64,000 nt of DNA from Alteraurantiacibacter buctensis (lineage in GTDB: Bacteria > Pseudomonadota > Alphaproteobacteria > Sphingomonadales > Sphingomonadaceae): contig NZ_WTYV01000002.1 of NCBI RefSeq assembly GCF_009827655.1, forward strand, positions 124,657 to 188,656, in the 5' to 3' direction. Shown one piece after another: positions 40,319 to 57,868 of the stretch (position 1 is the stretch's first letter; each line of letters begins with the position of its first letter). The position numbers were made by a program, and so were the translations under genes. The notes under the pieces were generated by a model. That model searched no databases and had not been told where the DNA came from. It saw only the letters and a program-made list of their open reading frames with translations.

Positions 40319-41083
40319 TTATGGCTCGCCAGTCGAACCAGAAGTTGCCAGGCCAGCCGCCTCAACCGGCGTTGCAACCGGCTGGTCCCGTTCCTTGCGC
40401 TCGGAGTAGCGGTCCACCAGCTGTTCGGCATGCGGCCGCAGCAGCGCCGTGAACCGCACCAGTTCCTCCATCACGTCAACGATGCGGTCGTAATAGCTGG
40501 ACGGCTTCATCCGCCCCGCCTCGTCGAACTCCTCGTATGCCTTGGCGATCGACGACTGGTTGGGGATGGTGAACATCCGCATCCAGCGGCCAAGGATGCG
40601 CAGGGTGTTCACGCTGTTGAAGCTTTGCGACCCCGCGCAGACCTGCATCACGGCCAGGGCCCGCCCCTGGGTGGGCCGCAGACCCTTGTAGGCCAGTGGC
40701 AGGTGATCGATCTGCGCCTTCATCACGCCGGTAATCTGCCCATGGCGTTCGGGGCTGCACCATACCTGCGCTTCGGACCACAGCGCATGCTCGCGCAGTT
40801 CATGGACCGCGGGATGATCGTCCCCTGCCACCTGATCGGGCAGCGGCAGGTCGCCGGGATCGAAGATCCGCGCCTCGCAGCCGAATAACTGGAGCAGGCG
40901 GGCCGCTTCCTCCACCGCGAGGCGGGAATAGGACCGCTCGCGCAACGACCCGTAGAGCAGCAGGACGCGGGGCGGCGGGTCGAGCGCGCCCAGGCCCAGC
41001 GCCGGTTGCCGGTGCAGGTATTCGGGTCGCAGGGCCGGCAGGTGTGCGGGATCAGAAAGGGCTCGCAAGCGCTGGAAGGTCAT
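40319..41083 (-). CDS. arsH: Arsenical resistance NADPH-dependent FMN protein ArsH
   Basis: A 254-residue flavodoxin-like flavoprotein. The FMN phosphate loop [20 protein letters not shown] is the ArsH hallmark, and [20 protein letters not shown] follows in the middle. ArsH oxidises trivalent organoarsenicals to the less toxic pentavalent forms and can reduce quinones or dyes with NADPH. ATG 41083 overlaps the acr3 stop (ATGA). It is the last gene of the arsenic operon. Confidence 0.95.
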
Positions 41084-42147
41084 GCGCCGTCCCCCGCAAA
41101 GCGGTTGCGCGTGCGGTTGGCGATGGCCACCAGCGAGAGCATCACCGGCACTTCCACCAGCACGCCCACCACGGTTGCCAGGGCCGCCCCGCTGGACAGG
41201 CCGAACAGGCCGATGGCGACCGCCACCGCCAGCTCGAAGAAGTTCGACGTGCCGATCATTGCACAGGGCGCGGCGATGTTGTGCGGCACCTTCCAGGCAA
41301 AGGCCCAGGCATAGGCGATGGCGAAGATGCCATAGGACTGGATGATGATCGGGATGGCGATCAGGGCAATCAGCAGCGGGTTGTCAATGATCACGCCGGC
41401 CTGGAAGGCAAACAGCAGGACCACGGTGACCAGCAGGCCGATGACCGACCATGGCTTCAGCCGGGCGGTGAAGGCATCTACCGCTGCGGCATTGCCGGCG
41501 TGCGCAGCGATCACCTTTCTGCGGGTCAGGGCACCCGCCACCAGCGGGATCACGATGTAAAGCACGACCGAGAGCAGCAATGTCTCCCACGGCACCACGA
41601 TGTCGGTCACGCCCAGCAGCAGCGCCACGATCGGGGCGAAGGCAACGATCATCACCAGGTCGTTCACCGATACCTGCACCAGCGTGTAGGCGGGATCACC
41701 CCTGGTCATCTGCGACCAGACGAACACCATGGCCGTGCAAGGCGCGGCCCCCAGCAGGATCAGCCCGGCGATGTATTGTTGGGCGTCATTGTCCGCGATG
41801 ATGCCGGAATAGAGGTAATCAAAGAACAGCACCGCCAGCGCGGCCATTGTGAACGGCTTGACCAGCCAGTTGATGACCAGCGTGATGACCAGCCCCTTGG
41901 GCTTGCGGCCAATGTCCCTGATGCTGGCGAAATCGACCCCGACCATCATCGGAAAGATCATCGCCCAGATAAGTGCGGCGACGACGAGGTTGACCGACGC
42001 CACCTCCAGGCCCGCCAGGAGGCCGACAGTGTCGGGTGACAGATTGCCGAGTACGATCCCGCCGACGATCGCCAGGGCCACCCAGAGTGACAGCCAGCGC
42101 TCGAACAGGCCAAGCGGTGAGGCGGATAGCGGCGAGTCCTGTGCCAT
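41080..42147 (-). CDS. acr3: Arsenite efflux transporter, ACR3 family
   Basis: A 355-residue inner-membrane carrier with ten helices that extrudes arsenite. The essential Cys of helix 4 is in [15 protein letters not shown] and the essential Glu of helix 9 in [17 protein letters not shown]. Both fit Acr3 rather than the unrelated ArsB. There is no ArsA ATPase gene, so it runs on the proton motive force. It starts at ATG 42147, three bases after the arsC stop, and overlaps arsH. Confidence 0.96.
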
Positions 42148-43350: not shown

Positions 43351-45969
43351 ATGCAAACAATGCACACATTGCGCCGCCTTTTGGCGTGCACGACCTGCCT
43401 ATGCTCAATTCTGCCGACAGCCGCGCTGGCGCAGCAGGCCAACGCGCGGGCCGACGAGGACTTCATCATCGTCGAAGGCGTGCGGGTTACCGAGGAAGTG
43501 ACCGAGACTGCCGCCGAGCTGGCCGAGTTCGGCACCCAGGTCCAGGTGATCAGCAGCGACGAAATCCTCACCGGCGGCTTCACCAACTTTGGCGAACTGG
43601 CAGCCGGCCTGATCCGTGGCGCCAACGTGGGCTATTCGCCGGACGAAGGCGAATTCACCATCCGCATCGACGGCGGCACCGACCGCGACACGCTGCTGCT
43701 GGTCGATGGCGTGCCCTATTTCGACCGCTCCAGCCCGTCGGAAGACCTGTGGCCGGCAACGGCGATCGACCCGCGCATGATCTCCAGCGTCGAAATCTTC
43801 CGCGGCGGCCAGAGCCTCTATTTCGGCTCCAACGGCGGCCTGGGCGTGGTCAGCGTGCGCTCGAAGGATCCCGAGGCCGAGCTGGCCGGCCAGATCGGCA
43901 TCTATGGCGGTTCGTTCCGCACCCGCGAGATCTATGGCAACGTCTCGGTGCCCCTGCCCATCGGCGAGGAAGGCGAGCACGCGCTGCTGGTGTTCGGCCG
44001 GTCTTACGAGACCGATTCCAACATCCTGTTCAACCGCGAAGCCTTTGCCGATACGCTGCTGGAATTGGGCGGCTTCCGCAAGTATCCCTACAGCTTCAAC
44101 AATATCGGCCTGCGTTACATGTGGCGCGCTGCGCCCGATGTGACCTTCCGCGCGGGCTTCCAACTGGCGACCATCGACTTCGAGGATACCTTTCCCGACC
44201 AGTCGCCCTATGCCCCCAACCGCACCGAATTCCCCATCTTCAACGCCTCGCTGGATGCGCGGCTGAATGACCGGATGCGGCTGGAAGTGGAAGGGCACTA
44301 CCAGGCGCCCTCGCTGCTCAACACCGAACTAGACCCGCTGGTCTGTTCGATCCCGCGCGTGGCGGACCTGCCGGCCAACGTACGCAGCCTGGCCCCCAGC
44401 GGCGGCTTTACCACGGCAACGGCCTTCGAGAACTTTGCCCGCGCCAACGGCCTGCCCACCGGCTGCGTCACCAACCCGCAGTTCAACTTCGGCCGCGCCA
44501 ACGTGCAGGCGCGCGAGGGCATCTATATCAACCCGGCCAACGGCCTGCCCTATGGCACCATCGCCAACCCGTTCCCCATCGGCCACCCGATGGGCTTCGT
44601 AATCCAGTCGGTCGCCAGCTTCGGAACCGGCGTGCCGATCAAGGGCATCGGCGATGTCGACCGGTTCAAGTCCGGCTATATCGATCACGGTGCCAACGCC
44701 CGCATCTATTACGACTGGACCGACTGGTTACAGACCGTGATCGGCGTGCAGAACACCAGCTATACCGACAATTCGGACGAAGTGTTCGGCGTGCGGGATG
44801 TGACCCTGCGGTCCAACGGCATCTATGGTGACCTGCGCCTTGACCTGCCGGTGCTGGAGGGCCTGAACATCTCGCTGGCGGGCCGTCAGGACTTCAACAG
44901 CAACTTTGCCGACGAGTTCATCTGGAAGGCCAGCGGCCGCCTGGAACTGCCCGCCGGCTTCTATGTCCGCGGCGGTGGCGGCACGTCCTACAGCGCCCCC
45001 AAGATTGACGAGATCGGTGCCTATGGCCCGCTGGCCAACGTCAATCCCGGCCTGGAATCGCAAAGTGTCGAAACCTACAACTTCGGCACCGGCATCAATG
45101 GCGAGATCGCCATGGGCACCTTCAACATCGAACTGGGCTATTTCGACACTGCAATCACCAACCAGTTCGGTGATCGCAGCGTGGGCGCGGTGTGCCTGGA
45201 ATATGCCCGCGAGACCAACCCTCTGGGCACCGTGGCGCGCGACGAGATTGTCCGCAACCGGGCGCTGATCATCCCGCCCGATGCCTTCTGCGCCACGGCG
45301 GCAGCGGCCAACCTGGGGTCCAACCAGTCGGTGGCGGTCAACACGTTGGCCCGCCAGGACATCAAGGGCTACACCATCGACCTGGCCTTCGATACCGAGA
45401 TGGTCCAGTTCGACCTGTCGTTCACCAAGAATGACTCGCTGGAACTCAACCCGGTGTTCGGCCTGCTGGCCCGCCGCGATGGCACCACCGCCAACCTGTC
45501 GTTCGTCACTCCCGGGCCGGCCGGGGCCAATGAGACCCGCCAGTCGGCCGAACGGCCCGAATGGTCGGCTTCGGGCCTGATCACCTTCACCCCCACCGAC
45601 CGGCTGACCGTGGCCTTCAACCCCCGCTACCAGGGGCCGGAATGGGCCTATGCACCGGCAGGCCTGGCGCGGCTGGTGGATGCCGACGGCAACCGCGTGG
45701 TCGAGGACGTCAACTTCGGCAACTACTTCGTGATGAACGCTTCGATCCAGTACCTGCTGGGCGAGAACCTGGAGCACCGCTTCATGGTGCGGCTGGTGAA
45801 CCTGTTCGACGAGGAATACTTCGAACGGTATTCCGGCGGGTCAACCCTGCAGATTTCGCGCGCTGCGGTGCGCGGGGAACTGGGGCCGCAGAACTCGGGC
45901 TACTACCGCCAGTATGGCTGGAACGGCAAGCCGCGCTCGGCCTGGGTGCAATACGAATACCGCTTCTGA
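43351..45969 (+). CDS. TonB-dependent receptor paired with PHP phosphodiesterase
   Basis: An 872-residue outer-membrane receptor. The signal peptide (LPTAALAQQ) is followed by a short acidic stretch with a TonB-box-like DFIIVEGVRVTEEV, a plug with GGTDRDTLLLVDGVPYFD and VEIFRGGQSLYFGSNGGLG, and a barrel ending in AWVQYEYRF. The start is ATG 43351; ATG 43360 is also possible. The secreted PHP phosphodiesterase gene follows after 78 bp. The receptor therefore probably brings a phosphoester or its complex across the outer membrane. The cargo is inferred only from this neighbour. Confidence 0.92.
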   Translation: MQTMHTLRRLLACTTCLCSILPTAALAQQANARADEDFIIVEGVRVTEEVTETAAELAEFGTQVQVISSDEILTGGFTNFGELAAGLIRGANVGYSPDEGEFTIRIDGGTDRDTLLLVDGVPYFDRSSPSEDLWPATAIDPRMISSVEIFRGGQSLYFGSNGGLGVVSVRSKDPEAELAGQIGIYGGSFRTREIYGNVSVPLPIGEEGEHALLVFGRSYETDSNILFNREAFADTLLELGGFRKYPYSFNNIGLRYMWRAAPDVTFRAGFQLATIDFEDTFPDQSPYAPNRTEFPIFNASLDARLNDRMRLEVEGHYQAPSLLNTELDPLVCSIPRVADLPANVRSLAPSGGFTTATAFENFARANGLPTGCVTNPQFNFGRANVQAREGIYINPANGLPYGTIANPFPIGHPMGFVIQSVASFGTGVPIKGIGDVDRFKSGYIDHGANARIYYDWTDWLQTVIGVQNTSYTDNSDEVFGVRDVTLRSNGIYGDLRLDLPVLEGLNISLAGRQDFNSNFADEFIWKASGRLELPAGFYVRGGGGTSYSAPKIDEIGAYGPLANVNPGLESQSVETYNFGTGINGEIAMGTFNIELGYFDTAITNQFGDRSVGAVCLEYARETNPLGTVARDEIVRNRALIIPPDAFCATAAAANLGSNQSVAVNTLARQDIKGYTIDLAFDTEMVQFDLSFTKNDSLELNPVFGLLARRDGTTANLSFVTPGPAGANETRQSAERPEWSASGLITFTPTDRLTVAFNPRYQGPEWAYAPAGLARLVDADGNRVVEDVNFGNYFVMNASIQYLLGENLEHRFMVRLVNLFDEEYFERYSGGSTLQISRAAVRGELGPQNSGYYRQYGWNGKPRSAWVQYEYRF

Positions 45970-45987
45970 GCTGACCAAACGACCCGT

Positions 45988-46018
45988 GGGCAGGCTGGCG
46001 CTGCGGCGCGGCCTGCCC
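45988..46018 (+). other. Intercistronic GC hairpin
   Basis: GGGCAGGC (45988-45995) pairs perfectly with GCCTGCCC (46011-46018) around a 15-base loop, between the TonB receptor stop and the phosphodiesterase start. It is followed by GCCCTTTCCC, not a U-tract. It could be a partial terminator or an RNA stabiliser that sets different levels for the two genes. Confidence 0.5.
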
Positions 46019-46047
46019 GCCCTTTCCCGATAAATGAGGAGTGTATC

Positions 46048-47223
46048 ATGCGCTATCTGCTGCTTGCTTCGGCCGCCCTGGCCACCCTGTCCGGCACCGT
46101 TGCCGCCCACGAAGATCACCAGCCCGATGATCGCGAAGCCCACTTTCCCGCCGCACAGGACGGCCGCCAGCTGCTGCTGGTGGACCTGCATACCCACTCC
46201 GTGTTCTCGGACGGCATGGTGTGGCCGACCATCCGCGTGGAGGAGGCCGAGCGCGACGGGCTGGACGCGATTGCCCAGACCGAACACCTGGAACACCAGC
46301 CGAAGCGGGCCGATATTCCGCACCCCGACCGCAACCGATCGCACCAGATCGCCGCGGCGGAAGTGGCGCGGACCGGCAGCGACCTCATCGCAATCAACGG
46401 CGCAGAGATCACCCGCGGGATGCCGCCGGGCCACGTCAACGCTGTCTTCGTCACCGATGCCAATGCCCTATTGGTGGACGATGCCGAAGCCGCCATCCGC
46501 ACGGCCAATGCGCAAGGGGCCTTCGTGTTCTGGAACCATCCCAACTGGCTGCCGCAGGCGCCCGATGGCGTGGCCCGGATCTTCCCGTTCCACCAGGCCC
46601 TGATTGCCGATCGCCAATTGCACGGTGTGGAAGTGGCCAACGGCACGCTGGATGCCTATTCCGAACACGCCTTCCAGATCGCCCTCGACTATAACCTGGC
46701 GGTGCTGGGCACGTCCGACATCCATGGCCTGGTGGACTGGAGGCACAACGCCGGCCACGGCGGGCATCGGCCGCAGACCATCGTGCTGGCCGGCCAGCGC
46801 AGCCAGCAGGGCCTGCGCGAGGCGCTGTTCGCGGGCAACACCGTGGCCTGGATCAACGACGACATCATCGGCCTGCAACGCAACGTGGAGCCGGTGGTGC
46901 AAGCCTGCCTGAAGCTGGAGCCGCAGAGCTACCTGCCGAACTCCAGCGTGCTCGACGTGCAACTGGTCAACTCCTGCCCGCTGGCCTTCACCCTCAACAA
47001 TGACGGCGACCGCACCCTGCACAACATCAGCGACCTGATCCGGGTAGAGCGCTACAGCTCGACGCGGCTGCAGGTGCGGATGAATGACGAGCGTAGCGTG
47101 CTGGCGCTGGATGTGCGGGTGCTCAACGCCCACATCCGCCCGCGTGAGGCGCTGCGCACCACGCTGTCGATTGATCTGCCGGCGTCCATGGTGCCAGCCT
47201 TGCCTTCGGCCGAGGCAGAGTAG
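46048..47223 (+). CDS. Secreted PHP-domain phosphodiesterase (Sb-PDE-like)
   Basis: A 391-residue protein with a signal peptide (ATLSGTVAAH). The PHP metal motif HTHSVFSDG comes after LLLVDLH, further ligands are likely in AIAQTEHLEH, NGAEITRG, WNHPNW and LGTSDIHGLVDW, and a C-terminal beta-sandwich of about 120 residues follows. The layout matches Sb-PDE family phosphodiesterases, known from Sphingobium for hydrolysis of dialkyl phosphates from haloalkyl phosphotriesters. It would free phosphate monoesters in the periplasm. ATG 46048 follows GAGGAG. It forms an operon with the TonB receptor upstream. Confidence 0.85.
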   Translation: MRYLLLASAALATLSGTVAAHEDHQPDDREAHFPAAQDGRQLLLVDLHTHSVFSDGMVWPTIRVEEAERDGLDAIAQTEHLEHQPKRADIPHPDRNRSHQIAAAEVARTGSDLIAINGAEITRGMPPGHVNAVFVTDANALLVDDAEAAIRTANAQGAFVFWNHPNWLPQAPDGVARIFPFHQALIADRQLHGVEVANGTLDAYSEHAFQIALDYNLAVLGTSDIHGLVDWRHNAGHGGHRPQTIVLAGQRSQQGLREALFAGNTVAWINDDIIGLQRNVEPVVQACLKLEPQSYLPNSSVLDVQLVNSCPLAFTLNNDGDRTLHNISDLIRVERYSSTRLQVRMNDERSVLALDVRVLNAHIRPREALRTTLSIDLPASMVPALPSAEAE

Positions 47224-47348: not shown

Positions 47349-48383
47349 CTACTGCTCCTCGGGCGTCATCGTTGTCCGCCATCGGCGGATAAAGTTGGCG
47401 GTGTTCATGCGGTCGCGGTTGCCAAGCAGGGCCGGGCCGACCTTGATGGCGCGCGTTCGTATGCCTGCCAGTTCGGGGTAAGGGTTGGAGAGATCGAGGC
47501 GGACCGGGATCATCCCTTGCTGCGCGATAAGCTGCTGGCCTTCCCGCGAAAGCAGATAGCCCAGCAGCCGCTGGCCAAGTTTCGGATTTGGGGCAGATGT
47601 CGGGATGAGCGCGACGCGCGATGCCAGCAATATGTAGTCGCCCGGCATGACGATGCCGAAGCGATCGTCATCGGCAGCCTGTTGAAACGCATAGGAACCC
47701 AGGATGCCATAGGCCAGCAGCAGCTTGCCAGCAGTCACGTCGGCGATCATTTCGCTGGACGACTGGTAAAGCTGTGGGCGCAGGGTGCCAATGGTGCGCA
47801 CCAGTTCCCAGTTGGCAGGATCCGCCTCCAGGTCCTGGTTGAACAGCAACATCCCGGTGGAGCTGCGCTCCGGGTCGTAAATGCCGATCCGGCCCAGGTA
47901 GCGGGTGCGGTTTTGCTGAAGGTGCTCTGTCAACTGGGCACGGCTTGTGTCCGGGGCGATGCCAAGATCGGCGGGTGTGTTGATGCCGATGACGATCGGC
48001 TCGACCCCGACCGCGAAGGCCCTGTCACGCCAGTGTGCCCAATCGGGCAGTTGTTCGATTTCTGGCACCGCGAAAGGCATCGCCTGGCCGTCATTGGCAA
48101 GCTGTACCTGCAGATCCATCGCCGAGTTGATCAGCAAGTCTGGTCCCGTCCGGCCGCTGCGGCGATCCTCCAGGTAGCGTTCGCTCACCTCAGCTGCAGT
48201 AAGCGAATGATACTCGACCGCAATCCCGGGGTTGCCCTGTTCGAAAGCGGTCAGAAGCGGCTCGATCGTGGGGGTGTCGATGGTGCCATAGACAACCACG
48301 GTGCCCGTCTCGCCGGTGCCGTCCAGCCGCTCGCACGCGCCAGACAGCAGCAACAAGACCATGATTAGCAGGCGACGCAGCAT
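47349..48383 (-). CDS. Solitary solute-binding lipoprotein (iron/ABC type)
   Basis: A 344-residue periplasmic binding protein with a lipoprotein signal (LLLLSGAC). The fold begins with VVVYGTIDTPTIEPLLTAFE and continues with GPDLLINSAMDLQVQLAND, FAVGVEPIVIGINT and IGIYDPERSSTGMLLFNQD, as in Fe(III)/AfuA-like type 2 binding proteins. No ABC permease or ATPase gene is near. It is divergent from a TctDE-like two-component pair, 72 bp apart. It could present a ligand to the sensor kinase rather than to a transporter. ATG 48383 follows GGGGAGATCGAGG. The family is clear, the ligand is not. Confidence 0.85.
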   Translation of the reverse strand: MLRRLLIMVLLLLSGACERLDGTGETGTVVVYGTIDTPTIEPLLTAFEQGNPGIAVEYHSLTAAEVSERYLEDRRSGRTGPDLLINSAMDLQVQLANDGQAMPFAVPEIEQLPDWAHWRDRAFAVGVEPIVIGINTPADLGIAPDTSRAQLTEHLQQNRTRYLGRIGIYDPERSSTGMLLFNQDLEADPANWELVRTIGTLRPQLYQSSSEMIADVTAGKLLLAYGILGSYAFQQAADDDRFGIVMPGDYILLASRVALIPTSAPNPKLGQRLLGYLLSREGQQLIAQQGMIPVRLDLSNPYPELAGIRTRAIKVGPALLGNRDRMNTANFIRRWRTTMTPEEQ

Positions 48384-48455: not shown

Positions 48456-49124
48456 ATGGCACGGATCTTGGTTGTAGAGGATGACATAGCCCTGGCGCGG
48501 GGCATCCTGGCGCTGCTGCGGGCAGATGGGCACGCTGTCGATCACGTCGAGTCGGCCGAGGAGGCGGTCGATCTGGTCGGCCAGGAGCCCTATGACCTGT
48601 TTGCCGTAGATCTTGGCCTGCCCGGGATGAGCGGGATCGACTTCGTCAGCGCGGCGAGGGCGAAAGGCAACAGCGCCTCCATCCTGATCCTGACGGCGCG
48701 GGACACGATCGAGGACAAGGTCCGCGGGCTGGACGCAGGCTCCGATGACTATCTGCCCAAGCCATTCGATCCTGCCGAACTGCGGGCGCGGGTGCGGGCC
48801 CTGCTGCGGCGCCACACCAGCGATGCCAGCCCGCTAATCAGTGTGGGCCAACTGGTGTGCGATCCGGCTACCAACAGGGCCACAGTTGCCGGCGAAGCCC
48901 TTGATCTGCGCCGCCGGGAATGGGCCGTGCTTGTCGCGCTGGCGCGCAAGGCGGGCACCGTGGTCGCCAAGGAACGCCTTGCCGCCGAGGTATTCGACTA
49001 TGACGATCCGGTCGGGCCCAACGCGCTGGAGGTTTATGTCGCCCGTTTGCGCAAGAAATTGCAGCCGTCCGGCCCGCATATCCGCACCCTTCGCGGGCTT
49101 GGCTACATCATGGAAACCTCATGA
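48456..49124 (+). CDS. OmpR-type response regulator, TctD-like
   Basis: A 222-residue regulator with a receiver domain and a winged-helix DNA-binding domain. The acidic pair is in ILVVEDDIALA, the phosphoacceptor Asp in FAVDLGLPGMSG and the Lys in YLPKPFDPAEL. The C-terminal part has LRRREWAVLVALARKAG and NALEVYVARLRKKL, ending GLGYIMETS. The ATG overlaps nothing upstream; GAGAGGGA precedes it. The stop overlaps the kinase start (ATGA). It probably activates the TonB receptor-capA-tctCB-tctA genes downstream. Confidence 0.93.
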   Translation: MARILVVEDDIALARGILALLRADGHAVDHVESAEEAVDLVGQEPYDLFAVDLGLPGMSGIDFVSAARAKGNSASILILTARDTIEDKVRGLDAGSDDYLPKPFDPAELRARVRALLRRHTSDASPLISVGQLVCDPATNRATVAGEALDLRRREWAVLVALARKAGTVVAKERLAAEVFDYDDPVGPNALEVYVARLRKKLQPSGPHIRTLRGLGYIMETS

Positions 49125-50506
49125 CGGGCATCCTGCCAAATTCGCTTTCGCAACGGCAGTTGGTGATCATGGTTTCGGCCCTTATCGGCATTGCCGGAAT
49201 CCTGGCTGCTGGCGGCACCCTGCTCGCGGCCAGCTTTGCCCAGAGGGCATCGGACCGCGTTTTGCGCAGCGCTGTCACCGCGATAAGCGACACGCTGACC
49301 GTCGAAGGGGACAGCGTTCAGGGACGGGTCCCGGTCGGCGCTTTCAGCTTCCTGGAAGACACCGGACAGGACAGTGTTTTCTACAACATCTCTCAGGGTG
49401 GACGGATAATCACTGGCTACGACGAACTGGCGGTGGCCCCGCCGGACGAGGGAGAGGACTTCGGCTTTCGCGATGACGAGGTCTTCGGGCAGGAGGTGCG
49501 GGTCGCGGTCCAGCAGGTTGAGCTGCCCCGCCAGGACCAGCCGGTGATCATTCAGGTGGCCGAAACCCTGAACCAGCGTGAAAGCCAGACAATCGAGATG
49601 CTGCTGGCCGTTCTGGTACTGGAGCTTGTCCTGGTGCTGGCGGCTGCGGCGATGATCAAACCCGCAGTGCGCTGGGGGCTGCGACCAGTTGCGCGGTTAC
49701 AGGCCCAGTTGAGTGGGGAAAAATTCAATGCGCTGGCCCAGAGCAAGCTGGAGACGCGCGATGTGCCGCGCGAGTTGCAGGGCCTGGTCGAAGCCTACAA
49801 TCACCTTATCGCGCAGCTTGGCGACGCCCTCGCAGCCCACCGCCGGTTCACGGGCGATGCCTCGCACCAGTTGCGCACGCCGCTTACCATCCTGAAAAGC
49901 CACATCGCCGTGCTGGAGCATTCGGAACCAGCTTCGGAAGAGTTCGACCAGTCGGTCAGGGACATTGCCGAAGCCAGTGCGCGGCTGGAACGGTTGCTGT
50001 CTCAGCTACTCAAGCTCGCGCGGGCCGAAGGGGGCGGTGCAAGCGACAGTGCCGTGGTTGAAACAGACCTGGCAGACCTGATCGCGGACCTGTGCCGTCG
50101 CCTGGCGCCCGAAGCCCTGGGGCGAGGTATGGACATGGAATTCCACGCCGACGGGCCAGTGATCGTCCGCTCGCATCCCATTGTTGTCGAGGAGATAGTC
50201 TCAAACCTGATCGAAAACGCCATTCGATACGGCCGGATGGGTGGGCTGATCGAGGTTTCCGTTCACCGGCAGGGGGAGGGCCCGGTAATCGAAGTTCGTG
50301 ATAACGGTCCGGGCATCGCGATGGGGGACCGTGAGAGGATTTTCCGGCGTTTTTCGCGCCTTGCCCGGGACTCGGGAAGGCCGGGCAGTGGCCTGGGCCT
50401 GGCGATCTCGCGCACGCTGGCAGAGGCCGTCGGGGCAAGCGTCGAACTTGTCTGGAGCGAGGTCGGGAAGGGTTCTTTGTTTCGCGTCAGTTTCATGAAA
50501 GGCTGA
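49121..50506 (+). CDS. Sensor histidine kinase, TctE-like
   Basis: A 461-residue membrane kinase. Helix 1 spans about residues 14-38. Next comes a periplasmic 2CSK_N-type sensor domain (40-160, with RSAVTAISDTLTVEGDSV and FYNISQGGRIITGYDEL), then helix 2 (LLAVLVLELVLVLAAAAMI). The HisKA domain has DASHQLRTPLTILKSHI with the phospho-His, and the ATPase has ENAIRYG, DNGPGIA and GSGLGLAIS. TctE kinases sense tricarboxylates and control their TTT transporters, and tctCB and tctA follow downstream here. It starts by overlap with the regulator gene. Confidence 0.93.
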   Translation: MTGILPNSLSQRQLVIMVSALIGIAGILAAGGTLLAASFAQRASDRVLRSAVTAISDTLTVEGDSVQGRVPVGAFSFLEDTGQDSVFYNISQGGRIITGYDELAVAPPDEGEDFGFRDDEVFGQEVRVAVQQVELPRQDQPVIIQVAETLNQRESQTIEMLLAVLVLELVLVLAAAAMIKPAVRWGLRPVARLQAQLSGEKFNALAQSKLETRDVPRELQGLVEAYNHLIAQLGDALAAHRRFTGDASHQLRTPLTILKSHIAVLEHSEPASEEFDQSVRDIAEASARLERLLSQLLKLARAEGGGASDSAVVETDLADLIADLCRRLAPEALGRGMDMEFHADGPVIVRSHPIVVEEIVSNLIENAIRYGRMGGLIEVSVHRQGEGPVIEVRDNGPGIAMGDRERIFRRFSRLARDSGRPGSGLGLAISRTLAEAVGASVELVWSEVGKGSLFRVSFMKG

Positions 50507-50580: not shown

Positions 50581-53415
50581 ATGCGCCGTTTTCAGCTCAA
50601 GCTGTCTGCTTCACTGCTTGCCATCGCCATGCCGTTTGCGCCTGCGTTTGCCCAGCAGGCCGACCAGCCGGATTCCGCCGCTGCGGACGCCGAAGGCAAT
50701 GAGGGCAATGCCATCATCGTCACAGGTTCGCGAATCCGGTCAGGCACGTTCAATGCGCCCACGCCGGTGACCGCCGTTTCGGCCGACCAACTCTCGATGG
50801 CCGCACCGGGCAACATGGCCGATGCCCTCAAGCAGATCCCCTCGGTTGTCCCGGGTGGCGGCACCACGGCCGGTGGCGGCACCCGCGCCGGCGGCCAGAA
50901 CTTCCTCAACCTGCGCGGCCTGGGCAACAGCCGCACGCTGGTGCTGCTCGACAACCGCCGCTTCGTGCCGACCGGGCCGGACCTGCTGGCCGACATCAAC
51001 CTGATCCCGCAAGGGCTGGTCGAGCGGGTCGACGTGGTGACCGGCGGCGCTTCTGCCGCCTACGGTTCGGACGCGGTGGCAGGCGTGGCGAACTTCATCC
51101 TCAACCGCCGGCTCACCGGGCTGCGCGTGAACGCCACGACCGGCATCTCGCAGCGCGGCGACAACGAGGAAATCCGTCTTTCCGTCAATGGCGGCTTCAG
51201 CGGCCTGGATGGACGCCTGCACGTGATTGCTGGCGGCGAATACTTCGAGAATGCCGGTGTCCGTGGCGATGAGCGGCAGTTCCGCCGCACTGCCGGGAAT
51301 CAGGTTCTCGACCCCGCCCGGCCTGGCTTCCTGACCCGCATCGACGATTATCGCACGGCCTACACGACTGGCGGACTTGTGGTTGTCGGCACGGGCGGCA
51401 CGACCGCCAATCGCAACCTGGTTTTTGGCACTCAGTTCGGTGATGGCGGCAACCCGCTTCCCTATGACTACGGCACGGTCTCGACCACGCTGCGCAACGC
51501 CACCGGCACGCAGAACGGCGGCGATGGCTTCCGCACTTCGACGGGGCAGGAAATTGTCCGCCCGCTGAACCGGACGTCTGCCTTCACGCATATCGATCTG
51601 GAAGTGGCCGCTGGCCTGACGCTCTATACCGAGGGCCTTTACGCGCGGACCAATTCCGAGTTCGCCAACAGTCCGACCACGCGCACCTTCAATATCTCGC
51701 GCAACAACCCCTACCTGGCGCAGGTCGCCCCGGCGCTGGTCACACAGCTTAACGCGCTGGGACTGACCGGTATCTCCATGAACCGCCTGACGCTGGAGCG
51801 CGGGCCAACGCTGACGACCAACGAAAACGAGACAATCCGAGGTGTTGTCGGTGCCGAGGGCGAGATCGGAAACTGGTCGTGGGACCTGTCCTACCAGTAT
51901 GGCCGCAATGACACGCACAGCCCCACCGCCACCAACCTGATCACCACCAACTTTACCCGCGCGCTCAATGCCGTGGTCGCCACGGCAGGCAATCCAGGCG
52001 GCATTGCGGCGGGTACGATCACCTGCGCTGACCTCGTCAACGCCGATGCTACGGTTCGCGCAAATGCCGCTGGTTGTTCGCCCTTCAATCCGTTCGGTGC
52101 GGGATCGCCCTCCAGTGCCTCGCTCGATTACGTATTCGGCACCTCGGTGTTTGATACCCGCACCACACAGCAGGTGGTGGATGCCAGTGTTTCGGGCTCG
52201 CTATTCGACCTGCCAGCGGGCCCCGTCGAGGTCGCGGTTGGCGGCGAGTGGCGCAAGGTCAGCGCAGTCACCACGGCCGATGCCACGTCGATTGCGGGCG
52301 GCTATCGCCTGATCAACCAGCAACCCTTTGCCGGCAGTGTCACGGTCAAGGAAGCATTCGGGGAAGTGCAGATTCCGGTGTTCGACGGCTCTGCAATCGG
52401 GTCATTCGACGTCAACCTGGCTGCCCGCGTCACCGACTATTCGACCAGCGGCGAGGTGACCACCTGGAAGGCCGGTGCCGTATGGCAGCCGGTTGACGAA
52501 CTGCGCATCCGCGGCACCTATTCGCGCGACATCCGCGCGCCCAACCTGGAAGAGCTGTTTGCCACCGGCCGCCAGAACAACATTACGATCCAGGATGCCT
52601 TCACCAACTCGACTTACCTGTCGGTCCCCAACCGTACGCTGGGCAATGCCGCGCTGACGCCGGAGAAGGCCAAGACCTTTGTGGTCGGTTTCGTCTACCA
52701 GCCGAACTGGCTCGATAATTTCAGTCTGGCAGTAGACTATTTCGACATTCGCATTACCGATGCGATCGCCAACGTCGGCGGGCAGAACGCGGTCGAACAG
52801 TGCAACCTGAGCAACCAGACCTCGCCCATCTGTGCTTTCGTCGAGCGCAACGCGGCCAATGCCGTGATCGGCACCCGCACTTCGCCGTTCAACCTGACCT
52901 CGCAGGAAACCAACGGCATCGACATCGAGACGCAGTATCGCACCCAACTGGGCGAAAGCACCGACCTGACGCTGCGCGGCTTTGCCACTTATACCGGCAA
53001 GAACCTGACCGATAACCCTTTCAACGCGGTCAACAATGACGCAGTGGGCGACCTTGCCCAGTCGGTCCAGCCGCGCTGGCGGGGCACTCTGTCCGCCAAC
53101 CTGGACAACGACGGCTGGGGTGCCTTCATCCAGGCGCGCTACATCCATTCGTTCACCTGGGACCGCCTGCGGACCCTTGGGGTGGATACCGATTTCAACC
53201 ACGTTCCGGCGCAGGTCTACCTGGATGGCCAGGTGAGCGTGAAGATCGAGGATTGGGGCGGCGAGCAGGAGGTGTTCCTCAACGTCTCGAACCTGCTCGA
53301 CAAGGGCTGGGTCTATGCCCCCATTCGCGGCGGCGCCACGCCGCTGCCGACCAATCCCAACCTGTATGACCAGGTCGGCCGCATGTTCAGGATCGGGCTG
53401 CGCGCCCGGTTCTGA
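50581..53415 (+). CDS. TonB-dependent receptor of the TTT locus
   Basis: A 944-residue outer-membrane receptor. A signal peptide (MPFAPAFAQQ) precedes the TonB-box and plug with AIIVTGSRIRSGTFNAPTPV, RGLGNSRTLVLLDNRRFVP and VVTGGASAAYGSDAVAGVAN. A long barrel ends in MFRIGLRARF. This is the sphingomonad large-receptor type with an SRI motif after the TonB box. ATG 50581 follows AAGGGGGATAAG; an upstream ATG-less frame from 50551 adds no signal. It lies between the TctE-like kinase (74 bp) and capA (43 bp), and so probably takes the TTT substrate through the outer membrane, in place of a porin such as Pseudomonas OpdH. Confidence 0.93.
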   Translation: MRRFQLKLSASLLAIAMPFAPAFAQQADQPDSAAADAEGNEGNAIIVTGSRIRSGTFNAPTPVTAVSADQLSMAAPGNMADALKQIPSVVPGGGTTAGGGTRAGGQNFLNLRGLGNSRTLVLLDNRRFVPTGPDLLADINLIPQGLVERVDVVTGGASAAYGSDAVAGVANFILNRRLTGLRVNATTGISQRGDNEEIRLSVNGGFSGLDGRLHVIAGGEYFENAGVRGDERQFRRTAGNQVLDPARPGFLTRIDDYRTAYTTGGLVVVGTGGTTANRNLVFGTQFGDGGNPLPYDYGTVSTTLRNATGTQNGGDGFRTSTGQEIVRPLNRTSAFTHIDLEVAAGLTLYTEGLYARTNSEFANSPTTRTFNISRNNPYLAQVAPALVTQLNALGLTGISMNRLTLERGPTLTTNENETIRGVVGAEGEIGNWSWDLSYQYGRNDTHSPTATNLITTNFTRALNAVVATAGNPGGIAAGTITCADLVNADATVRANAAGCSPFNPFGAGSPSSASLDYVFGTSVFDTRTTQQVVDASVSGSLFDLPAGPVEVAVGGEWRKVSAVTTADATSIAGGYRLINQQPFAGSVTVKEAFGEVQIPVFDGSAIGSFDVNLAARVTDYSTSGEVTTWKAGAVWQPVDELRIRGTYSRDIRAPNLEELFATGRQNNITIQDAFTNSTYLSVPNRTLGNAALTPEKAKTFVVGFVYQPNWLDNFSLAVDYFDIRITDAIANVGGQNAVEQCNLSNQTSPICAFVERNAANAVIGTRTSPFNLTSQETNGIDIETQYRTQLGESTDLTLRGFATYTGKNLTDNPFNAVNNDAVGDLAQSVQPRWRGTLSANLDNDGWGAFIQARYIHSFTWDRLRTLGVDTDFNHVPAQVYLDGQVSVKIEDWGGEQEVFLNVSNLLDKGWVYAPIRGGATPLPTNPNLYDQVGRMFRIGLRARF

Positions 53416-53458: not shown

Positions 53459-54961
53459 ATGCGCCGTCGCCTGATGCTTCATGGGCTACTTCTCTCCCCG
53501 CTGCTCGTTGGCGCGGCGGCGGCGCAACCCTTCCGGTCCCCTCCCGATGCGACCACCCACGAGTGGCGCGATCTGGAGCGCGAGCTGCGCAACAAGATGA
53601 CCGGCACCTATACGGTCGCCATTACCGGGGACCTGCTGTTCCAGGAGCCGGCGGGCCAGCGCATCAGCCCGCAGATCCGGGAAGTTCTGCAGTCTGCCGA
53701 TACCACGATGGGCAATCTTGAGGGGTATCTGGTTGACCGCCAGACCTGGGCGGGCACCCACGGCTATCGGAATAACTGGGCACCCAAGGAGCTGGCGCAG
53801 GACCTGGCGGACCTGGGCTTTGACCTGGTGGCGCCGGGCGAGGCTGACGGCGGCCCGGCCGAGCAGATCGAGACGATGCGCTATCTCGATGAAGCCGGCA
53901 TCAAGCGTCCCGGCTATGGCCCCAACCTGTCCATTGCGCGCCAGCCGGCGTTCCAGGAACTGCCGCAGGGGCGCGTGGCACTGGTGGCAGCGTTCCCCAT
54001 CGGCCCGGTGGCTGACGGGCCGATTGCGCGGAACAAGGACGGAAACGACGGTGGCGAACAGGCGGGCATGAACCCGCTGCGGTTGACCCAGTGGGTAACC
54101 GTCACGCAGGAGCAGTTCGACCAGCTGGTCGCAATGCGCGACTCTATTCTGGCGCGGCGCAACGAGCCCGATCTGGCCCGGCCCACCGACCTGCCGCGCG
54201 ACCGGCCGGGCCGATTGTCGTTCCTGGGCCGCAACTACATCGTGGCGGAACGTCCCGGCGAATTCCGCTATGAAATGAACGCTGAAGACCTGCAATCGCA
54301 GCTTCTCGCGATCCGCAACGCGAAGGAATACGCCGATTTCGCGGCCTTCACGATGCACATCCACGAGAACAGGTATGCCTTCCAGGCCTATTCACAGGAC
54401 CATTATCCGCCCGACTATGTGATGGAGATCGCCCGCGCTGCGATCGACAACGGGGCCGACATGTTCTTCGGCCACGGCAACCATACTATGCAGGGGATCG
54501 AGATCTACAAGGGCCGGCCGATCTTCTACAATCCGGGCAACCTGGCAGTGCAGCGGTTCGGTTCGGACGACAGCGCGCCGAACCCTGGCAACGTGACGAA
54601 CATCGAGGCCGGCGAACTGGGCAACATGTGGCTCCAGCAATACGAGAACCTCGTCGCCTATGTCGCGCAGTCGCACTATCGCGATGGCCGCTTGGAAGAA
54701 ATCCGCATCTACCCGGTCGATCTGGGCGTCGACGCCACGCGGGTGCCGTGGTCGCGATCAAGCATTCCGCAGACACCATCGCCCGAATTGGCCAGGCGAA
54801 TCCTGGCCGACCTCCAGCGCTATTCCGAGCCTTTCGGCACGCAGATCGAAATCAGGGACAACATCGGCATCATTCGCATACCGCCGGAAGCTATTGTTCC
54901 GGTTGGCGGTGATCTGGATATTCCCGGCCGCGGTCCTGCATCCGGACGTTCGGGCAACTGA
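53459..54961 (+). CDS. Secreted CapA-family (PGA_cap) metallophosphatase-like protein
   Basis: A 500-residue protein with a signal peptide (LLVGAAAAQP). The CapA-type calcineurin-like fold shows the metal motifs AITGDLLF, TTMGNLEGYL, AFTMHIHENRYAF and FGHGNHTMQGIEIYKGRPIF, followed by NPGNLAVQRFG. CapA-like proteins are best known from poly-gamma-glutamate synthesis, but many soluble ones have unknown hydrolytic roles. Here it is exported and stands between the TonB receptor and the TTT transporter, so it may process the imported ligand in the periplasm. ATG 53459 follows AGGGGA. The fusion gene starts two bases after its stop. Confidence 0.85.
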   Translation: MRRRLMLHGLLLSPLLVGAAAAQPFRSPPDATTHEWRDLERELRNKMTGTYTVAITGDLLFQEPAGQRISPQIREVLQSADTTMGNLEGYLVDRQTWAGTHGYRNNWAPKELAQDLADLGFDLVAPGEADGGPAEQIETMRYLDEAGIKRPGYGPNLSIARQPAFQELPQGRVALVAAFPIGPVADGPIARNKDGNDGGEQAGMNPLRLTQWVTVTQEQFDQLVAMRDSILARRNEPDLARPTDLPRDRPGRLSFLGRNYIVAERPGEFRYEMNAEDLQSQLLAIRNAKEYADFAAFTMHIHENRYAFQAYSQDHYPPDYVMEIARAAIDNGADMFFGHGNHTMQGIEIYKGRPIFYNPGNLAVQRFGSDDSAPNPGNVTNIEAGELGNMWLQQYENLVAYVAQSHYRDGRLEEIRIYPVDLGVDATRVPWSRSSIPQTPSPELARRILADLQRYSEPFGTQIEIRDNIGIIRIPPEAIVPVGGDLDIPGRGPASGRSGN

Positions 54962-54963
54962 CA

Positions 54964-56334
54964 GTGGCCGGCCAGACGCCACATCTTTCGCGCCGGACCG
55001 TGATGGCCGGCGGCGCAGCGCTGGTGTCGCTTCTCGCGACCCGCGCCAGCGCGGCAGCGGACTTTCCCAACCGGCCCTTGTCGATCCTGGTGCCGGCCAA
55101 TCCGGGCGGGGGATGGGACCAGCTTGCCCGCCTGATGCAGCAGGTGATTGCGCGCAACCACCTGGCACCTACGCCGATCGACGTGTTCAACAAGGGCGGC
55201 GCGGGCGGTGCCATCGGCCTGGCCGACCTGGTCACCCGCAAGCACGACGATCCCTACACCATCATGGCGGCCGGTTCCGTGCTGCTGGGATCGACCATTT
55301 CGCAGAACAGCCCGTTCCGCGCGAGCGACTCCAGGCCGCTGGCCCGGCTGATCGTCGAGAATCTGGTGGTTGCGGTCCCCAGCAACTCGCCGCTGCGCAC
55401 GATCAACGACCTGCTGGACGCCTACCGCGCCGACCCCGGCAGTTTCACCTGGTGCGGCGGATCGGCAGGGGGTGTTGACCATATCCTGATCGGCCTCATC
55501 ACCGAAGCCTGCGGCGTCGCCGCGGAACGGATGCGTTATGTCGCCTATTCGGGCGGCGGGGAGGCATCCGCGGCCATCATGGGCGGCCAGGTAACCGCTG
55601 CCGTGGCCGGTTACGGCGAATGGCGCGGACTGGCCGAATCCGGCCATATCCGCATCTTGGCATCGAGTGCGCCCCAGCGTTTCGGGGATGGCACCATCCC
55701 GACCCTGCGGGACGCCGGGTTGGATATCGTGCTGCAGAACTGGCGCGGGGTCTTTGCCGCGCCGGGTGCCAGCGCCGAGGGCATTGCCTGGTGGGCCAAC
55801 CTGATCCGCACCATGCGGAACACCCGCGATTGGCAGGAAATGCTGGCCAACAAGGGCTGGGAGGATGGCTACCTGGAGGCTGATGCGTTTGCCGCCTTCA
55901 TCCGCGCCGAGGAGATGACCACCGAGACAACCCTTGCACGGGTGGGAATTGGCGGCACTGCCGGCGGCAACTCGCCCCTGGGTCCCTGGGGAATGCCCAA
56001 GGTCATTGCCGGCCTCGCAGTCGTGGCTGCCGTCGGCGTGGCCATGGAATACCGCAGCGGCATCTCCGTTGGTCCAGCAGGGCTGGAAGACGACGACGAA
56101 GGTGGCGGTGACCTGCCGGTCTGGTCGCGCTTCCTGGCGGGAGCGGCAATCATCCCGCTCTATCTGCTGGCCCTGTCGCTGGTGGGCTTCCTGATCGCGA
56201 CGCCGGTCTTCGTCGTGTCCATCTGTCTGCTGATGAAGTCACGGACGCTGAAATGGGACGTTCTGGCAGCACTGGTCCTGACTGGCCTGGTGTGGCTGCT
56301 GTTCACCCGCGTGCTCAACATTTTCCTTCCGTGA
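54964..56334 (+). CDS. TctC-TctB fusion protein of a tripartite tricarboxylate transporter
   Basis: A 456-residue single protein that joins two TTT subunits. Residues 1-30 are an export signal with a twin-arginine (LSRRTVMAGG). Residues 34-335 are a TctC/Bug-type binding protein (FPNRPLSILVPANPGGGWDQ, YVAYSGGGEASAAIMGGQV). From about 336 comes TctB: SPLGPWGMPKVIAGLAVVA matches the segment in front of TctB helix 2. Two more hydrophobic stretches follow and the protein ends with LLFTRVLNIFLP. The first TctB helix is missing, which lets the binding domain stay in the periplasm. GTG 54964 starts two bases after the capA stop. The frame is continuous, with no frameshift. Confidence 0.88.
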   Translation: MAGQTPHLSRRTVMAGGAALVSLLATRASAAADFPNRPLSILVPANPGGGWDQLARLMQQVIARNHLAPTPIDVFNKGGAGGAIGLADLVTRKHDDPYTIMAAGSVLLGSTISQNSPFRASDSRPLARLIVENLVVAVPSNSPLRTINDLLDAYRADPGSFTWCGGSAGGVDHILIGLITEACGVAAERMRYVAYSGGGEASAAIMGGQVTAAVAGYGEWRGLAESGHIRILASSAPQRFGDGTIPTLRDAGLDIVLQNWRGVFAAPGASAEGIAWWANLIRTMRNTRDWQEMLANKGWEDGYLEADAFAAFIRAEEMTTETTLARVGIGGTAGGNSPLGPWGMPKVIAGLAVVAAVGVAMEYRSGISVGPAGLEDDDEGGGDLPVWSRFLAGAAIIPLYLLALSLVGFLIATPVFVVSICLLMKSRTLKWDVLAALVLTGLVWLLFTRVLNIFLP

Positions 56335-56347
56335 CGAGGTAGCTGCC

Positions 56348-57868
56348 GTGGATTTTGCGACACTCGCCAGCAACATGAGCACCGGCTTCGCGGTGGCGCT
56401 TAGCCCCGACAAACTGGCGTTCGGCCTTCTGGGAGTTCTCATCGGCACGGCCGTGGGCGTGCTGCCGGGCCTGGGGCCGTCGGTTGCCATCGCGCTGTTG
56501 CTGCCGCTCACATTCGGTCTCGATCCAACGACCGCGTTTATCCTGTTCGGCGGCATCTACTACGGCACGATGTATGGCGGATCGACGACATCCATCCTTA
56601 TTAACACGCCGGGTGACGCGGCTGCCTCGGTTTCCACCTTCGAGGGCTACCCGATGGCCAAAAGCGGCCGCGGCGGGGTTGCCCTGGCAACGTCGGCGAT
56701 CGGTTCGTTCATCGGCGGCACTTTTGCGACTTTCATGCTGATGATCGCCGCGACCAGCCTGGCGGGTATCAGCCTGGTTTTCGGGCCACCGGAATATGCC
56801 CTGCTGATGCTCCTGGCCCTGACCATGGTCACCGGCATGGCCGGCAAGTCGCTGTTCCGCGCGCTGTTTGCGCTGGCTTTCGGCCTGGGCCTGGCGATGA
56901 TCGGCATCGACATGCAGACGGGCGAGAACCGCCTGACCTTCGGCGTGCAGGAGCTTTACGGCGGGATCGATGTCGCACTGGGGGCTGTCGGGCTGTTCGC
57001 CGTGGGCGAAGCCCTCTGGCTGATTGCGGCCCCGGCTTCCGCGGCGACCGAGCGGATGCCCACCAACCGGCTGTGGCTGACCATCGAAGAGTGGCGCCGC
57101 TCGCTGGTGCCGTGGTTGCGGGGAACGGTTGTTGGGTTCTGCAGCGGCCTGCTGCCCGGCACCGGGGCGACCTTTGCGACATTCCTCAGCTATGGGGTCG
57201 AACGGCGCTTCGCGAAGAACCCGCAGGAATTCGGCAAGGGTGCGATCGAGGGGCTGGCAGGCCCGGAGGCGGCCAACAATGCAGCGGCCGGTGCCAGCAT
57301 GGTCCCGCTTCTTGCGCTGGGCATTCCCGGCTCGGCCACGACCGCGATCATGCTGGTTGCGTTCCAGTTGTATGGCTTGCAGCCGGGGCCGACGCTGCTG
57401 GAGACGAACAAGGACCTTGTCTGGGGCCTTATCGCCAGTCTCTATGTGGCCAACGTCCTGCTGGTGATCCTCAACCTCCCCCTGGTGGGGCTGTGGGTGC
57501 AATTGCTCAAGATTCCCAAGGGAATGATGACGGCGCTGATCCTCGTGTTCTCTACTGTTGGCGCATACAGCCTGCAGGGAAGCCTGGGCGATGTGACGAT
57601 TGTCTGGCTTCTGGGGGTCGCCGGCTTCCTGTTGCGCCGCTTCGGATTTCCGATCGCGCCGGTTCTGCTTGGCCTTGTGCTCGGCCCCTTGCTTGAACAG
57701 GACCTGCGCCGGTCCCTCGCCATGTCGAACGGCGACTATTCGATCTTCATCACGCGGCCCATCTCGGCGTGCATCCTCGCTGTCATCGTCATCGGGCTTG
57801 CCGTGTTCGTCAGGAAGACGCTGCGCGAGCGTAAGGTTGCGCTGCGCGCTGTGGTGGAAGCAAACTGA
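56348..57868 (+). CDS. tctA: Tripartite tricarboxylate transporter large subunit TctA
   Basis: A 506-residue membrane protein with about 12 helices, the ion-coupled channel subunit of the TTT family. The family repeats are visible: [22 protein letters not shown] and [22 protein letters not shown] in the first half, and [23 protein letters not shown] with [15 protein letters not shown] in the second. The start is GTG 56348, with GAGG upstream, 13 bases after the fusion gene. Substrates of the family are citrate and other di- or tricarboxylates and related acids. It completes the TTT set with the TctC-TctB fusion. A tRNA-Pro remnant starts five bases after its stop. Confidence 0.95.

Follow-up and report, generated by a model that had tools for sequence, protein, structure and literature searches.

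Organization of the tctCB locus

The window analysed here is a stretch of 64,000 nucleotides from Alteraurantiacibacter buctensis (contig NZ_WTYV01000002.1, positions 124,657 to 188,656 of the forward strand). It carries a gene, tctCB, that joins the binding protein (TctC) and the small membrane subunit (TctB) of a tripartite tricarboxylate (TTT) transporter in one protein and is followed by the gene for the large membrane subunit, tctA (Table 1). Upstream on the same strand lie genes for a TctDE-like regulator and kinase, a TonB-dependent receptor and a PGA_cap-family protein, with a 4-base overlap between regulator and kinase and gaps of 74, 43 and 2 bases in front of the receptor, the PGA_cap gene and tctCB. 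The SBP_bac_8-type protein encoded on the opposite strand is a possible partner of the sensor. A TonB-dependent receptor is found near six of the seven fusion loci described below, the seventh (L064) being on a stretch without the upstream side.

Several features of the surroundings are recorded for completeness. The PGA_cap protein (53459-54961) scores 131 bits against the NCBIfam model of the lasso peptide epimerase MslH, far below the cut-off of 700. Positions 43351-47223 of the window encode a further TonB-dependent receptor and, after it, a PHP-type hydrolase with DUF5001 (45.8 bits to the CehA/McbA model, cut-off 80), and ArsH and ACR3 arsenite efflux genes are found at 40319-42147. ModA-like SBP_bac_11 proteins with lipobox-like N-termini are encoded at four other fusion loci (L022:13261-14127, L023:1271-2089, L063:6884-7684 and L065:3993-4796), directly beside a TonB-dependent receptor in L065 only. 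An anti-phage defence role was considered and dropped, as no PADLOC match was obtained.

Table 1. Features of the tctCB locus (window coordinates) and TctC-LuxR genes at other loci (locus coordinates)
Feature	Position	Strand	Basis and remarks
SBP_bac_8-type binding protein, lipobox-like LLLLSGAC	47349..48383	-	32% homologue beside S. meliloti tctCBA
Response regulator (TctD-like)	48456..49124	+	45% to the regulator annotated at the matching position in S. meliloti; ATG at 48456
Sensor histidine kinase, 2CSK_N domain (TctE-like)	49121..50506	+	Pfam; 34% to the kinase beside S. meliloti tctCBA
TonB-dependent receptor	50581..53415	+	Pfam; ATG 50581, AAGGGGGA upstream; listed ORF starts at GTG 50551
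PGA_cap-family (CapA-like) protein	53459..54961	+	Pfam; 2 bases upstream of tctCB
tctCB fusion gene	54964..56334	+	One open frame, GTG to TGA, 456 aa
Export signal, residues 1-30 (LSRRTVMAGGAALVSLLATRASA), twin-arginine type	54964..55053	+	Sequence; start codon predicted
TctC/Bug binding domain, residues 31-331	55054..55956	+	Pfam TctC; Bug27 structural match
Linker and joint, residues 328-339 (GIGGTAGGNSPL)	55945..55980	+	Alignments; pLDDT < 50 at 332-339
TctB without first helix, residues 340-456	55981..56331	+	Pfam TctB; AlphaFold2 helices
tctA, large membrane subunit	56348..57868	+	Pfam TctA 1.1e-151, 423 of 423 positions; 13 bases downstream of tctCB
TctC-LuxR protein	L022:11824-13392	-	
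TctC-LuxR protein	L023:2267-3769	+	
TctC-LuxR protein	L024:9586-11172	+	
TctC-LuxR protein	L066:10890-12455	-	
TctC-LuxR protein	L196:1474-2898	+	
TctC-LuxR protein	L197:1447-2877	+	

A complete TctC joined to TctB without its first helix

The original prediction, made from the sequence without database searches, proposed that an export signal, a TctC domain and a truncated TctB share one uninterrupted frame. The frame is indeed open from GTG 54964 to TGA 56334 and contains both Pfam families: TctC at residues 64-316 (2.8e-22, 80 bits against a cut-off of 27) and, in the C-terminal part as foreseen, TctB at residues 330-456 (2.3e-15, 57.4 bits against 29.1). The only other Pfam line up to E 1 is ATG22 (E 0.44), and the DctP/TAXI and DctQ domains of TRAP systems are absent from TctCB. 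tctCB is confirmed as a real and rare TctC-TctB fusion. Two details of the prediction have to be adjusted. The binding domain, drawn to about residue 335, is complete but has its natural C-terminus near residue 331. The twin-arginine motif of the export signal is limited to three fusions, those of the sphingomonad members (window, L022 and L063), whereas the other four of the seven have signals that are Sec-like by eye.

The TctB part of the window protein covers profile positions 21-137 of 137, leaving positions 1-20 unmatched. In all seven fusions the match starts at profile position 19-24, at the end of helix 1 (the first 18-23 positions are unmatched in the six others), while the separate TctB of Sinorhizobium meliloti matches from position 2. 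The predicted loss of the first helix is borne out by an alignment with 19 separate TctBs, one of which (L135) is N-terminally incomplete: the separate set shows the hydrophobic peak of helix 1, all seven fused proteins lack it, and the remaining peaks coincide. The fused TctBs begin just before the motif that follows helix 1 in separate TctBs (GGYAxVGPRxFP type; NSPLGPWGMP in the window), the linker running into this periplasmic motif (VGPxxxP type) at residues 339-345. On the other side of the joint, separate TctCs end in a GLVK-type sequence where the fusions continue with a GIGG type (alignment read at every second row), and 14-15 residues separate the end of TctC from the first remaining helix in all seven proteins. 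Since TctC ends at the joint and TctB starts after helix 1, the fusion unites a whole TctC with a TctB deprived of its first helix.

Across codons 316-350, dN/dS is 0.11 between the window and L022, 0.27 between the window and L063 and 0.24 between L022 and L063, which indicates that the joint is under purifying selection. A matching in-frame joint in six other genomes, together with these low ratios, makes a sequencing error at the joint very unlikely. The stop and restart near base 55980 that might have undone the prediction was thereby set aside, and a frame error or assembly artefact is ruled out by the recurrence of the joint in seven genomes and the constraint across it.

A separate intact tctB or tctC serving the same tctA would have told against the prediction. 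A whole-genome Pfam profile search at E 0.001 found TctC, TctB and TctA once each, all at the tctCB locus; at this threshold, in a genome 99.73% complete, there is no second TctC or TctB and hence no further TctC that could act as a separate, diffusible binding protein.

Fold and membrane topology

The AlphaFold2 model of TctCB (pLDDT 87.3 with 40 alignment rows, 74 with 7) consists of a Bug fold, a disordered segment at residues 332-339 and helices at 340-364, 386-407, 409-423 and 429-450. Confidence is about 71-95 in the helix regions (10-residue blocks) and below 50 in the linker. In a fold comparison that covers the Bug domain (residues 33-332), the best match is Bug27 (2qpq_A; VIA Z 37.2, rmsd 1.9, 292 aligned residues), and eleven TctC/Bug entries score between 31.9 and 37.2; a sequence search of the PDB found no TctB or TctA structure. 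TctB had been described in the prediction as a four-helix protein. Four predicted helices, one of them of only 15 residues, remain here after the loss of helix 1, and by the alignment with separate TctBs an intact TctB from this group would have five helical segments, one more than the prediction gave. Helix counts of four to five appear in the consulted part of a review (PMC5812351).

Basic residues tend to flank membrane helices on the cytoplasmic side (the positive-inside rule). All seven fusions have a basic residue no more than two positions beyond the first remaining helix, and six have a net basic loop ahead of the last helix. These basic residues beside helices fit a TctC domain located outside. 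The expectation that the topology stays correct is therefore mostly consistent with the charges, except in the three sphingomonad members (window, L022 and L063), whose first cytoplasmic loop as a whole is net acidic.

Distribution and origin of the fusion

The survey of genomes for the same fusion next to tctA yielded six more cases, so that seven full-length fusions are available, each with TctC and TctB above the Pfam cut-offs in one frame and each followed by tctA. Two belong to G149, from the same family and with 65% identity, and G014, from the same order and with about 40%. The other four, found in 80 loci taken from at least 562 confirmed relatives, are from a Sphingomonadales MAG (L063), a Pseudomonadales MAG (L064), a Hellea MAG (L065) and Colwellia maritima (L066); the remaining 76 loci have no frame with TctC and TctB together by BLAST, and 69 of them have a separate TctB frame. 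In overlapping samples drawn evenly and not exhaustively, full-length fusions were found in three genomes for the order (396 sampled), two for the family (397) and one for the phylum (398), this last being the A. buctensis genome itself. In the phylum sample, 117 of the 398 genomes match at E 1e-40, the others among the best matches listed corresponding to the TctC part. None of the 13 further congeneric genomes listed in the sample of the order has a tctCB match at E 1e-20. A search from TctB, which BLAST found in 147 of 385 alphaproteobacterial genomes while missing some, gave no frame with both domains in 38 loci among the matches listed. Two long frames (L025 and L053) were discarded as fusions because they read through over tctC in another frame.

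In a TctA tree of 77 rows, the partners of the seven fusions lie together on a single branch (SH-aLRT 100), with one label change under midpoint rooting. In the TctC tree, a supported set (99/95) unites the fusions with separate TctCs of Acidobacteriota, Chloroflexota and one Methylomirabilota; a single origin of the fusions in this midpoint-rooted tree has weak support (60/93). From predicted starts, five of the six separate TctCs of this set carry lipoboxes (L067, L068, L070, L071 and L072, not L127), as does the TctC of L069, whose TctA groups with that of L068; across all 80 loci there are seven such TctCs, the seventh being L126. The lipobox TctCs of Acidobacteriota and Chloroflexota (L067-L072) are probable membrane-anchored lipoproteins in their own right. 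No convincing lipobox is present in the seven fusions (four scanned, three judged by eye). The frequency of lipoboxes among the grouped separate TctCs suggests that membrane tethering may predate the fusion and, by parsimony on midpoint-rooted trees, that lipid tethering of TctC may have come before tethering by fusion.

TctC-LuxR proteins

Three of the seven fusion genomes (G149, G014 and Colwellia) encode, beside the locus, a second type of tethered TctC, in which a TctC domain, a membrane helix recognized by sequence, a coiled stretch and a LuxR-like helix-turn-helix follow each other in one protein (Table 1). G217 has such a gene (L024) without tctCB, directly after the citrate:proton symporter gene citMHS (TIGR00784, 558.9 bits, cut-off 259.7), and two further proteins come from the genus g562 (L196 and L197). 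No full-length TctC-LuxR protein was found in G000 or in the genomes of L063, L064 and L065, the last three being MAGs. The GerE score is 29.3 in L066 (cut-off 23.5) and just under the cut-off in L022, L023, L024 and L197 (20.3-23.4), with no line for L196 at E 0.001; the four proteins that were aligned share an unvarying SERTVRQQA core. The TctC-LuxR proteins appear to be membrane-spanning one-component regulators in which a Bug domain is the sensor. No such protein is described in the titles or abstract openings of the open-licence PMC matches listed.

Discussion

The reading that we favour, and consider well supported, is that TctCB unites the receptor and the small membrane subunit of a TTT transporter, so that the binding protein is fixed instead of diffusible. 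Once the protein is exported and its signal peptide presumably removed, the Bug domain would reside in the periplasm and the chain would enter the membrane directly through the former helix 2 of TctB. The topological job of helix 1, which is to bring an N-terminus from inside to outside, would no longer be needed because the binding domain already arrives from the periplasm. The linker is short, with 8 disordered residues and 14-15 between the end of TctC and the helix; it would hold one binding domain over each TctB-TctA pair, and capture, docking and release could take place in one complex with no need for an excess of free receptor. Fixed-receptor transport with one receptor per transporter would follow from this anatomy. 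We also infer signal-peptide cleavage, 1:1 stoichiometry, transport activity and a citrate-like tricarboxylate as substrate.

Among the alternatives, the one that fares best, though we judge it unlikely, is that the signal peptide is retained as an anchor that replaces helix 1, in which case TctB would keep its full helix count, with TctC inserted into its first periplasmic loop. The N-terminal hydrophobic helix (residues 17-25 in the AlphaFold2 model) is on the correct topological side for such a role, and the rest of the topology would stay unchanged. However, AxA-like cleavage sites are visible by eye in four of the seven proteins (window, L022, L063 and L023), with VIA in L065, CYA in L066 and none clear in L064. 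The signal region is moreover the least conserved part (38-44% identity and dN/dS of 0.51-0.88 in three pairs), unlike a helix of a functional subunit, and its pLDDT is only 42-52. A cut in the linker, which would release a soluble TctC and reduce the fusion to a means of co-production, is most improbable: the linker is glycine-rich in most members and predicted to be disordered, but the 14-15-residue stretch is kept in every fusion, the joint is constrained and the released TctB would be devoid of helix 1. We give equally little credit to TctCB being mainly a sensor, whose tethered TctC would report to the adjacent TctE-like kinase with transport as a secondary task; the TctDE-like pair upstream on the same strand and the dual role of Bordetella BctC in transport and signalling (consulted part of PMC5812351) speak for it, while the tctA gene that follows at all seven loci and the separate, sensor-like TctC-LuxR proteins of three fusion genomes speak against it.

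The proposed fixed-receptor transporter can be set beside systems known from the portions of the literature available to us. The TTT genes of S. meliloti pSymB (tctCBA, TC 2.A.80) belong to the same three families in the same order (TctC 41% and TctA 53% identical) and are likewise flanked by a kinase, a regulator and an SBP; there, however, tctC and tctB are two genes, helix 1 is present and TctC is free. Their 4-base overlap would offer a natural starting point for a fusion event. In the TctAB fusion of Paraburkholderia caribensis (PMC5812351), two TTT subunits are also joined, but both are membrane subunits and the binding protein is free. The likeness to ABC and TRAP fusions drawn in the original prediction is sound, as ABC SBP-TMD and rare TRAP Q-P fusions are both on record. 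The Q-P fusions (PMC8276074), compared here from a mention in the source, link a binding protein to a small membrane subunit as TctCB does, TRAP and TTT having no sequence similarity (PMC5812351). GlnPQ-type ABC fusions (PMC8025302) also tie the receptor covalently, but they are ATP-driven and of unrelated families. TAXI-GltS fusions, mostly of Lachnospiraceae (PMC12344293), share with TctCB an N-terminal SBP on a secondary transporter, although it is placed on the transport subunit itself and the families differ. Finally, lipid-anchored TAXI SBPs (Roden 2023, cited in PMC11574862) keep a receptor at the membrane by a lipid anchor and not by fusion. No report of a TctCB fusion was found in open-licence PMC full text, a search that leaves subscription literature outside, and the part of PMC5812351 available has no mention of one. 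Fusions with SBPs and of TTT subunits are therefore known, and the evidence found suggests that the TctCB joint itself is new.

Concerning the substrate, genes for tricarballylate utilization adjoin the fusion locus in G149 (L022:14075-16604), where TcuA reaches 645.6 bits (cut-off 369) and TcuB 336.8 (cut-off 246.6; 316.9 with the stricter model NF011607, under its cut-off of 524). Together with the citMHS gene of G217, they point to citrate-like tricarboxylates for the clade, and the substrate is probably citrate-like. Tricarballylate degradation in A. buctensis itself was discarded, as its genome has no TcuA above the cut-off; since the PGA_cap neighbour is also unexplained, the substrate at this particular locus is uncertain.

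A fixed TctC cannot wander to a sensor kinase, and sensing has apparently been delegated elsewhere. The free BctC of Bordetella is required for transport as well as for signalling via BctE (consulted part of PMC5812351), two roles that a tethered TctC could scarcely combine. At the A. buctensis locus, sensing is perhaps delegated to the TctDE-like pair with its own binding protein, and the gene content of three of the seven fusion genomes suggests that transport and sensing are divided there between two tethered copies of TctC. Tentatively, and with slightly less than even confidence, we propose that the clade has split the jobs of TctC, the TctB-fused copy serving uptake and some members adding a TctC-LuxR citrate sensor, and that the fusion arose from a lipoprotein-anchored TctC by exchange of a lipid tether for a protein tether.

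To conclude, TTT transporters are abundant and their mechanism is obscure, the function of TctB being called unknown in the available part of a 2018 review (PMC5812351). A natural fusion lacking helix 1 of TctB suggests that the complex can do without this helix. It also places TctC above TctB, implies a 1:1 ratio and provides one covalent construct for structure work. Besides, TctCB makes it testable whether a free receptor in excess is needed for binding-protein-dependent secondary transport.
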